Shown piece after piece: positions 28,678-31,234 of a stretch of 64,000 nucleotides of DNA. The stretch's first letter is position 1. The number at the start of each line of letters is the position of its first letter. Source of the DNA: Patescibacteria group bacterium (lineage in GTDB: Bacteria; Patescibacteriota; Patescibacteriia; 2-12-FULL-60-25); the NCBI GenBank assembly GCA_031082005.1, contig JAVHLR010000001.1, positions 1,059,251 through 1,123,250 of the forward strand, given 5' to 3'. The notes under the pieces were generated by a model. It was not told where the DNA came from. It was given only the letters and a program-made list of their open reading frames with translations, and searched no databases. Both the position numbers and the translations under genes were made by a program.

Positions 28678-29694
28678 ATGAAAACCTCTGATTTCGACTA
28701 TATCCTGCCGCCGGATAGCATTGCCCAAGAACCCGTCCGTCCCCGCGACAGCTCAAAACTGCTCATCTTAGATAGGCAGTCAGGCGCACTGGAACACAAG
28801 CATTTCTACGACACTATCGACTATTTACGCCCAGGGGACCTCCTCGTGGTTAATCGCAGTAAAGTCTTCAAAGCACGCCTCCTCGCCCGGCTTCCGACGG
28901 ATGTAGAGGTCTTCCTGCTTCATCCAGAAGGCGACAAATGGATCGCCCTCGCCAAACCGGGACGCAAACTGAAAATCGGTTCGATCGTCGAATTCGCTGA
29001 TGGCTCGACCTGCAACGTAGTAGGAAAAAAAGACGATGGTACGGTGATTTTGGATTTCCAAAAACCACCCGAAGAAGTCCTGACCCTAACCGACAAGATC
29101 GGCCAAGTACCGACCCCACCTTACGTCGAGAAAAAAGTTTCCGATGCCAGCGATTACCAGACGATTTATGCCAAAGAAATCGGTTCCGTCGCTGCACCGA
29201 CTGCCGGATTCCATTTTACTCCGGAGCTGATGGAAAAACTCAAATCACAAGGCGTAAAATTCGCTGAAGTAATCCTGCATGTCGGTCTTGGTACATTCCG
29301 CCCCATGAAGACTGACACACTGGAAGAGCATGTGATGCACGAAGAATGGTTGGATATCCCGGTTGAGACCAGCGAGGCGATAAAAGCGACGAAACAAAAC
29401 AACGGACGCGTCATCGCCGTCGGCACCACAACCGTACGCGCACTCGAATCTGGCATAACCCACGGCTTCACGAAACTCTTCATCACACCGGGTTACAGAT
29501 TCAAAACTATCGACGGTCTTATCACGAACTTTCACCTTCCAAAATCGACCCTGATAGTGCTCGTCTCATCCTTCGTCGGTGAACATAAAAATGATCCAGA
29601 CTGGGGGCGTCAGACGGTTCTGCGTGCCTATTCCGAAGCCATTTCCAAAGGCTACCGTTTCTACTCATTCGGCGACGCGATGCTGATTAAATAA
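28678..29694 (+). CDS. queA: S-adenosylmethionine:tRNA ribosyltransferase-isomerase
   Basis: Adds the epoxycyclopentane-precursor ring from SAM to preQ1 in tRNA wobble position 34. The 338 residues are standard. Seen are FDYILPPDSIAQEP--PRDSSKLL, DLLVVNRSKVFKARL, TAGFHFTPELM, ILHVGLGTFRP, RVIAVGTTTVRALES and TNFHLPKSTLIVLVSSF. The ATG at 28678 is preferred: it starts the conserved domain, and an extended -10 (TGG-CAATCT) lies 7 bases upstream, fitting a leaderless mRNA. The rest of queuosine synthesis is not in the window. Confidence 0.96.
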   Translation: MKTSDFDYILPPDSIAQEPVRPRDSSKLLILDRQSGALEHKHFYDTIDYLRPGDLLVVNRSKVFKARLLARLPTDVEVFLLHPEGDKWIALAKPGRKLKIGSIVEFADGSTCNVVGKKDDGTVILDFQKPPEEVLTLTDKIGQVPTPPYVEKKVSDASDYQTIYAKEIGSVAAPTAGFHFTPELMEKLKSQGVKFAEVILHVGLGTFRPMKTDTLEEHVMHEEWLDIPVETSEAIKATKQNNGRVIAVGTTTVRALESGITHGFTKLFITPGYRFKTIDGLITNFHLPKSTLIVLVSSFVGEHKNDPDWGRQTVLRAYSEAISKGYRFYSFGDAMLIK

Positions 29695-29700
29695 AATTGG

Positions 29701-29735
29701 AAAGCCCCGGCGTACAGCTTGTACCCGGGGCTTCT
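29701..29735 (+). terminator. Intrinsic terminator of queA
   Basis: AAGCCCCGG-GTACA pairs with TGTAC-CCGGGGCTT, followed by CTTCTTGG. The stem is strong; the T-tract is modest. Confidence 0.75.
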
Positions 29736-29849
29736 TGGTCCGAGACTTGGACCGATGTGGAGGCGCGCGGCGCGGTGTCGTCACGTTGGTGCGTCGCGCA
29801 AGTAGCAGATGTTCGGAGGGGGTCGGCACGTTGCGTTGGTCGAAGACAA

Positions 29850-30084
29850 CTACCCGTAGTCGATCTTCTTGGCCATGTCGGCCTCCGTGAAGTCAGCTCA
29901 GCCCTCGAGCTCGTCGATGCCCGTGAACTGGCCCTCGCGCAGCGCGTAGTCGCCGGCGCCGGTGAGGATCATGGTTGTCGTTGTACAGCTGTTGATGCCG
30001 GGCCGCGTCGTCGTCCTTCTCGTCGGATAACTTATGATCGTCGAGAAGCTGACGCTACCCATAGTCGCTCTTCTCCTTCGACAT
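29850..30084 (-). pseudogene. Decayed gene or cluster of three mini-ORFs
   Basis: On the minus strand MSKEKSDYG is followed by TAG (30055-30057), then the same frame continues with protein-like sequence (RQLLDDHKLSDEKDDD). A second frame gives MILTGAGDYALREGQFTGID ending in TGA at 29898-29900, then MAKKIDYG ending in TAG at 29850. The first and third have good ribosome sites (AAGGAG, GGAGG), and a TTGACA lies upstream. This is either one gene broken by stops and a frameshift, sequencing errors, or three real short peptides ending alike in DYG. The opposite-strand frame has no protein character. The rest of 29736-30190 holds nothing else I can identify. Confidence 0.45.
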
Positions 30085-30172
30085 GACGTTTCTCTCCTTG
30101 TTCTCTGCGTTTTTTCGTTCCCGCCACACGTGTGACGGTGCCCTCTGCAGGGCGGCGCGCTTGATACTCGCT

Positions 30173-30201
30173 ATTCAAGCACGCTTCGCCGTTTTTGTCA
30201 A
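30173..30201 (-). promoter_or_regulatory. Promoter for the mini-ORF locus
   Basis: TTGACA with TTGAAT after 17 bases on the minus strand. The -35 box overlaps the 3' end of the small membrane-protein gene. Confidence 0.5.
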
Positions 30202-30314
30202 GGCTCGTTGGGGAACTTCGAGTCCCTCTTTCCCGACACTTTGGAGATCACAGCAACGAACCAGAAGATGAACAGGATCAGGACGGCTGAACCGAAACCG
30301 TAAAGCACGAACAT
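30198..30314 (-). CDS. 38-residue membrane peptide
   Basis: One transmembrane helix (MFVLYGFGSAVLILFIFWFV) and a basic tail (SKVSGKRDSKFPNEP). Its ATG lies one base after the HIT gene stop codon, so translation is probably coupled. No ribosome site of its own is seen. It may anchor or partner the HIT-like protein; this is inference from position only. Confidence 0.55.
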   Translation of the reverse strand: MFVLYGFGSAVLILFIFWFVAVISKVSGKRDSKFPNEP

Positions 30315-30315
30315 C

Positions 30316-30822
30316 TTAACGCCAACCCATGTGCGCGTAGAGCTCGTTGTTCCCTCGGGCGGCCACCAGCTGGTCAAGGAATCCCTTGATTTCACCCGAG
30401 GTCTTTGACGCCTCGTCATGAGAACAGACCCACGTTTTCAGCCGAAATAGGCCGTTCAACACATCGGCCTGGTTGGCCGGCATACCGACGTAACGCGGGA
30501 GCACATGCCAACAGACGTGTCCCATCACTTCGCCTGACAGAAACACGTAGACGTGTTCCGGACGGGTCGCCCGCGCCACGGCCTCTGCGACATCGTGCAA
30601 CAGCAGACCGAGGTTGAGCAACTCCTCGTCCGTCAACAGATAGAAATGCTCGACGTGCCTACGACACCTGACCGCCATATGGCCCTTCAGCGATACAAGC
30701 GCGACCGGCGCAGTGCTGACGACGCCATGCTCCACGACCCAGTGGTCATCGCTGTAGATTTCTCCGCCGGGGACAACCACTTCGCCTGCATCAATACGGC
30801 AGGCCAAACATTTTTCACCCAT
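30316..30822 (-). CDS. HIT-family protein with H-x-C-x-H in place of the triad
   Basis: A 168-residue protein of the histidine-triad fold. The N-terminal CLAC (residues 5-8) and DHWVVEHG match zinc-containing HIT proteins. The triad region reads GHVCWHVLPRY: His102, Cys104, His106. The middle histidine, the usual nucleophile of HIT hydrolases and transferases, is a cysteine. The ATG at 30822 has GGAGG 8 bases upstream. The downstream 38-residue membrane peptide starts one base after the stop. The activity is uncertain because of the substitution. Confidence 0.78.
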   Translation of the reverse strand: MGEKCLACRIDAGEVVVPGGEIYSDDHWVVEHGVVSTAPVALVSLKGHMAVRCRRHVEHFYLLTDEELLNLGLLLHDVAEAVARATRPEHVYVFLSGEVMGHVCWHVLPRYVGMPANQADVLNGLFRLKTWVCSHDEASKTSGEIKGFLDQLVAARGNNELYAHMGWR

Positions 30823-30877
30823 GGATCCAACCTCCGTAAAAGACCTAGAGGCAAATAACCACAAAATCCTCGGAGCG

Positions 30878-31234
30878 TCAAAGGATACCCTCAATGAATC
30901 TGAAGTTCGGCGGCTGATCGGGCTGCATCAGTATCGCCAAAGCATGCACCTGAAAATCAGCCCCTTCGATTCCTTTACTGCGCAAATACATCTCGATGGC
31001 GCGCGCCAGATGCTTGAGCTTCGTCGGCGTTATCGCCTCTTCAGGATAACCGAATTCCAAAGACCGTCGCGTCTTTATCTCGACGAAATGCAGCTTACCG
31101 TCCTTCTCGAGGATCAGATCGATTTCCCCTAAGCGGCAATTCCAATTACGCTCGACGACTTCATAACCTTGCAAGATAAAAAAGGACGCGGCTAAATCTT
31201 CGCCGCGATTCCCGAAAACTCTGCGTTTATCCAT
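30878..31234 (-). CDS. yraN: YraN/UPF0102 endonuclease-like protein
   Basis: A 118-residue protein with the restriction-endonuclease-like fold of UPF0102: GNRGEDLAASFF, then RNWNCRLGEIDLI and VEIKTRRS, which carry the catalytic D-ExK pattern. The family is thought to act in nucleic-acid processing; its real role is not settled. It lies 12 bases after an unknown membrane protein gene. Confidence 0.92.
   Translation of the reverse strand: MDKRRVFGNRGEDLAASFFILQGYEVVERNWNCRLGEIDLILEKDGKLHFVEIKTRRSLEFGYPEEAITPTKLKHLARAIEMYLRSKGIEGADFQVHALAILMQPDQPPNFRFIEGIL

Follow-up and report, generated by a model that had tools for sequence, protein, structure and literature searches.

The locus described here raises the question of what two very short open reading frames with the same ending may be doing in one intergenic region. 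A sequence-only reading had pointed to MSKEKSDYG and MAKKIDYG, both ending in a TAG stop codon and both preceded by a good ribosome site, and had left the choice between a recent pseudogene, a sequencing error and a genuine peptide operon. The window, i.e. the whole stretch of 64,000 nucleotides that was analysed, belongs to a genome of 1.31 Mb in 7 contigs (G000), and the mini-ORFs were compared in this genome and its relatives.

Location and distribution of the unit

The mini-ORFs sit on the minus strand in positions 30210-29690, and the unit that they form occupies about 0.5 kb (~480 nt) between a gene for a HIT-like protein and the convergent queA gene. Copies are present at the same site in two of the three other available genomes of the genus (G003 and G001), that is in three of the four members, and the unit is absent from the third (G002), where queA adjoins a different gene and its contig runs on into other genes. 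A DNA search of 96 genomes gave strong matches in G000 and G003 only, the G003 copy being 74% identical to that of G000, beyond short chance matches. Five of the short matches were inspected: three (L004, L005 and L008) lie within other coding frames or where such a frame begins, and two (L006 and L007) are in unrelated sequence. The G001 copy was too diverged for this search and was located by inspecting the neighbourhood of queA, to which it is likewise convergent.

Among 285 genomes of the class, the ORF1 pattern was found with at most two mismatches in G000, in G003 and in one further genome (G286), where the match has no start codon. The pattern of the junction between ORF1 and ORF2, AAGGAG-N(4-12)-TATGGGTAG, occurs in three out of 41 genomes from the order (the reversed control in 0 of 41), and in none of the 37 family genomes outside the genus. 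A pattern scan of genome contigs returned six records, two of which correspond to the loci of G003 and G001; in the remaining four nothing else of the unit is present, and a scan of viral contigs gave no matches. With the leader model R2, 41 genomes of the family yielded three strong matches (E <= 3.4e-23) followed by a weak tail of 34 rows (E 0.003-0.94), of which three were inspected and were all within long open frames. Outside the genus, 28 queA loci were covered by a two-motif scan downstream of queA, and three of the 28 were read through. The best reading of these sequences is that of a genus-restricted, self-contained transcription unit, and we found no description of it in the open-access literature.

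The surroundings of the unit have features of their own. The HIT-like protein (30316-30894, minus strand; Pfam HIT, E 0.0021, under the curated cut-off) is fast-evolving, with identities of 56% to G003 and 43% to G001, as compared to 84% and 78% for queA. At the stop of its gene begins a 38-codon ORF (30198-30314, minus strand) with one hydrophobic stretch (MFVLYGFGSAVLILFIFWFVAVISKVSGKRDSKFPNEP); a Pfam search of this ORF gave nothing above cut-off, and G003 has a counterpart (MAAIWCFGSSVLILFIFWVVAVIWRVLGDRDMKPPG). A response-regulator-like ORF (MLIIDDE..., L015, about 2159-2620) adjoins the unit in G001, where the protein has no Pfam match at E up to 1, and such an ORF adjoins queA in G002 (L020). 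In G003 the terminator is separated from queA by ~240 nt of additional sequence (L003, 2135-2376), which ends in a dispersed-repeat-like stretch (GGATCCCGGATCAAGTCCGGGATGACAG).

Promoter, leader hairpins and terminator

The TTGACA that had been noticed upstream of the mini-ORFs is indeed present on the minus strand (30201-30196), and TTGAAT follows after 17 nt (30178-30173), so the two can be read as the -35 and -10 hexamers of a putative promoter. The -35 hexamer is identical in G000, G003 and G001, the -10 hexamer is TTGAAT in G003 and TTAAAT in G001, and the three-way alignment retains cTTGACA, 17 nt, TT(g/a)AAT. A simple consensus scan for promoters and terminators listed neither signal of the unit; the promoter was missed because the scan rules require an A at the second position of the -10 hexamer. 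The -10 hexamer and the presumed start site are covered by an inverted repeat (30155-30184; GCGTGCTTGA, 10 nt, TCAAGCGCGC), a possible operator, which suggests that the promoter is regulated. Of 500 shuffles per genome, 19 reached the score of this dyad in G000, 6 in G003 and 3 in G001. Its arm sequences and loop lengths vary between the genomes, therefore we put the operator forward as no more than a suggestion.

The predicted leader contains two tandem hairpins on the minus strand. Hairpin A (GCCC...GGGC, 30140-30153) consists of four pairs that are invariant in the three genomes. Hairpin B (30121-30138) has 7 bp and a 4-nt loop, which is ACGU in the window, UUCG in G003 and AAUC in G001. 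Counted on an alignment that was fitted to the structure model, five of the seven pairs of hairpin B are changed on both sides in G001 versus the other two genomes and none is ever broken, 5 of the 11 pairs of the two hairpins together are compensatory, and 0 of 33 hairpin cells are unpaired, i.e. 100% are paired as compared to 36-48% when the partners are slid. MAFFT misaligned the G001 leader and a two-sequence model (R1) was therefore used for placing it; both hairpins are also predicted when each sequence is folded alone. The leader by itself folds no better than its shuffles (z -0.32, +0.53 and -1.66 across the three genomes). The whole transcript has a fold z of -2.9, none of 100 shuffles being as stable, and covariation elsewhere in it is thin, amounting to two-sided changes at 4 pairs in two sequences.

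At the 3' end, a stretch of 96 nt that lies outside ORF1-ORF3 and extends into the terminator is identical at 92 of 96 positions between G000 and G003; it includes a hairpin, GGTCC-AAGTCTC-GGACC (29737-29753, minus strand). Sequence and folding both indicate an intrinsic terminator, made up of a hairpin and a T-rich tail (29690-29733, minus strand), that also faces the end of queA. It takes a CCCCGG..CCGGGGTTTT form in G001, and a terminator ends the unit in all three genomes.

The mini-ORFs and the constraint on their sequence

ORF1 (MSKEKSDYG, minus strand, 30084-30055) was confirmed with its TAG end and with an AAGGAG (30094-30099) 9 nt upstream. This first Shine-Dalgarno sequence is present in the three genomes, and the ORF, 8-9 codons long, reads MPKEKSNYG in G003 and MQKESGYG in G001. 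ORF1 contains a second AAGGAG (30073-30078, minus strand), which precedes the ATG of ORF2 by 10 nt in G000 and G003 and by 7 nt in G001. ORF2 (29898-30062, minus strand) has 54 codons, as compared to 50 in G003 and 53 in G001, and its ATG overlaps the ORF1 stop (ATGGGTAG); in 3 of 3 loci it is TATGGGTAG that carries both the stop and the ATG. The three-way alignment retains AAGGAGAGnnACGTCATG, ORF1, TATGGGTAGCG and ORF3. The last codons of ORF1, TAT GGG TAG, contain ATG GGT AGC, the start of ORF2 in a frame shifted by one, and codons 3-4 (AAG GAG) are the Shine-Dalgarno sequence that lies 7-10 nt before this ATG. Because both elements lie within it, most of ORF1 is made up of the initiation signal for ORF2 (AAGGAG...TATGGGTAG), and its DYG-stop ending is due to this signal and not to a peptide motif.

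ORF2 is open in the same frame in the three genomes, and the distance from its stop to ORF3 is 21, 20 and 14 nt in G000, G003 and G001, respectively. The 24-residue ORF that had been noted between the mini-ORFs (29972-29898) does exist, but it is the tail of ORF2 read from an internal ATG rather than a separate ORF. The frame past the first TAG, which had looked protein-like, soon reaches other stops in both homologous loci.

ORF3 (MAKKIDYG, 8 codons, minus strand, 29876-29850) also proved to be as first described, with a TAG end and a GGAGG 5 nt upstream (29882-29886; CGAGG in G003, GGAGG in G001). It reads MATIDDFG in G003 and MAKIEDFL in G001; the start, the length and the TAG are common to the three genomes, and the alignment shows ATGGCCA.GA, then GAC, then GTAG. 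A possible but weak ORF4 (29781-29849, minus strand) adjoins the stop of ORF3 and would start with TTG (CTG in G003, ATG in G001), and its lengths of 22, 18 and 45 codons in G000, G003 and G001 are not conserved. CCTCC is present at the 3' end of the 16S sequence in the window, therefore the Shine-Dalgarno sequences of the unit suit the host.

The repetition of the DYG ending exceeds chance in G000, where a single one of 2000 shuffles attained the likeness of the ORF1 and ORF3 modules in local alignment, but it is not kept in the relatives: there the likeness is at chance (488 and 859 of 2000 shuffles) and the mini-ORFs end in NYG and DFG (G003) or GYG and DFL (G001). These endings rule out DYG as a conserved peptide motif, and we read the resemblance of the two modules in G000 as coincidence or recent drift. 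Since the relatives lack the repeated DYG, the conserved property is the position of the starts, the stops and the Shine-Dalgarno sequences.

A comparison of ORF2 between G000 and G003 gives 2 synonymous versus 23 nonsynonymous codon changes; of its 17 comparable four-fold sites, 15 are identical. In the neighbouring queA, HIT-like gene, prfA and yraN pooled, 180 of 372 four-fold sites are identical, which is near saturation; the pool refers to the comparison with G003 only and leaves out that of prfA with L015, where 89 codons were covered. The four-fold sites of ORF2 and the 3' stretch with its 92 of 96 identical positions thus argue that constraint acts on nucleotides. No sign of protein-level selection was seen in ORF2 between G000 and G003, and the ORF2 of G001 is barely alignable. 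As nucleotides both inside and outside the ORFs are kept beyond codon needs and no protein selection is apparent in ORF2, it is probable that the RNA is functional as such, a reading that draws on three copies of which two (G000 and G003) are closely alike.

As regards translation, the two indels by which ORF2 differs between G000 and G003 comprise whole codons (9 and 3 nt), those outside ORF2 being of 1, 42 and 9 nt. Depending on the genome, 21-31% of shuffles contain an open frame as long as ORF2, so that the open frame and the in-frame indels support translation of ORF2 weakly. The best evidence for translation comes from ORF1 and ORF3 with their initiation signals, and we infer that ORF2 is translated as well.

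Possible explanations and known systems

On the whole we lean towards a small independent structured RNA with coupled reinitiation from ORF1 to ORF2 and with an additional role at the RNA level. Ribosomes would load at the first Shine-Dalgarno sequence, translate the 8-9 codons of ORF1 and stop at its TAG; re-initiation at the overlapping ATG, aided by the embedded AAGGAG, would then lead into ORF2 (50-54 codons), and ORF3 would be loaded separately or by coupling. ORF1 would be a natural termination-reinitiation leader whose peptide is incidental, and the RNA would act besides being a message, as in a dual-function small RNA. A role of the RNA appears at least as likely as a role of the peptides.

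The main rival, which we find possible though somewhat unlikely, is a structured non-coding RNA with mini-ORFs that are either incidental or just sites of ribosome docking or unwinding. It agrees with the conservation at the nucleotide level in ORF2 and in the 3' stretch, with the leader covariation and with the fact that a synonymous-rich pattern is found in none of the ORFs. However, the starts and stops of ORF1-ORF3 and two Shine-Dalgarno sequences hold their position in G001 despite diverged intervening sequence, and the lengths of ORF1 and ORF2 vary by whole codons only. A described non-coding RNA finds no support in Rfam either, where a search of 29600-30400 with the covariance models of release 15 gave no hit up to an E of 5. 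The unit is not RNase P RNA, which lies elsewhere in three of the four genomes (over the family cut-off in two, below it in G003 with 85.8 bits, and not found in G002), nor is it tmRNA, which lies elsewhere in 4 of 4.

It may also be speculated that a structured RNA acts via ribosomes that pass serial mini-ORF modules, each consisting of a strong Shine-Dalgarno sequence, 8-9 codons and a stop. Such an RNA would read or buffer ribosome availability, would be specific to Patescibacteria and would make throwaway peptides; we regard this as unlikely.

A true peptide operon, with peptides of 8-9 residues and a protein of 50-54 residues being secreted or used in signalling, comes nearest among the three options first proposed, and is still quite improbable. 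In its favour, the initiation and stop signals of ORF1, ORF2 and ORF3 are conserved and the unit has its own predicted promoter and terminator. On the other hand, the DYG ending of ORF1 results from the start signal of ORF2, ORF1 is largely set by the embedded Shine-Dalgarno sequence and the overlap, and it is nucleotides rather than amino acids that are conserved: the peptides drift, with no synonymous changes in ORF1 and ORF3 and few in ORF2. Searches of Pfam and NCBIfam with the ORF2 products of the three genomes gave no hit up to an E of 1, and the unit contains no transporter or modifying enzyme.

It is very unlikely that we are dealing with a gene that was broken recently or with an error of the assembly. 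The frames do appear interrupted when read as one protein, but the same interruptions, i.e. the same layout of starts and stops, are found in two other genomes, and the promoter, the leader fold and the terminator are maintained. The DNA search of 96 genomes gave no intact homologue with the frames joined, and the homologous loci share the stops. Both the pseudogene and the sequencing error are disfavoured because the relatives keep these stops despite the near-saturation of four-fold sites in the neighbouring genes; as judged from the genomes compared, the mini-ORFs are real and conserved, and neither a broken gene nor a sequencing error. Finally, a gene on the plus strand (a TTG ORF at 29697-30086, 129 codons, whose frame is open in G000) is hardly credible, as it would start within the terminator hairpin without a Shine-Dalgarno sequence, the corresponding frame is interrupted in G003 and cannot be aligned in G001, and the conserved signals are those of the minus strand.

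Returning to the structured RNA with coupled reinitiation, parallels can be drawn with several known systems. In bicistronic designs the Shine-Dalgarno sequence is embedded in the leader cistron, and we know of no such cassette with a pair of leader hairpins like that of the unit. According to PMC5995908, these cassettes place a short leader cistron before the target cistron; the unit likewise has a short leader cistron before a longer one, and the cassettes are synthetic. In termination-reinitiation pairs as outlined in PMC6728339, the downstream start overlaps the upstream stop and the Shine-Dalgarno sequence lies within the upstream ORF. Both features, the overlap and the Shine-Dalgarno sequence inside ORF1, are found in 3 of 3 loci of the unit; unlike the pairs in that outline, its upstream ORF has 8-9 codons, the overlap is ATGGGTAG and not ATGA or TGATG, and the coupling is predicted. 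A synthetic translation booster engineered in E. coli (PMC13255528) uses a short non-functional upstream ORF that encodes a nonsense peptide and has an internal ribosome binding site beside its stop, in or out of the target frame. ORF1 is similarly a short ORF with an internal ribosome binding site near the stop, whereas in contrast to the engineered booster the unit is natural and the downstream ORF2 is an orphan. Dual-function or peptide-coding sRNAs, as sketched in PMC5521070 and PMC5331693, are small transcripts that may be both RNA and message. The unit may be of the same nature, but unlike the sRNAs of those sketches it has several mini-ORFs in a single predicted transcript. The observations that bear on such a reading are the conserved promoter and terminator signals of its own and the excess four-fold conservation together with the leader covariation.

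In more general terms, an overlap of a start and a stop can mimic a recurrent peptide ending. Patescibacteria are a largely uncultured lineage with streamlined genomes, and half a kilobase of non-protein sequence that is under selection for nothing would be unexpected in them. With its covarying leader and its natural mini-ORF reinitiation leader, the unit may thus be a concrete candidate for regulation at the level of RNA or translation in these bacteria.
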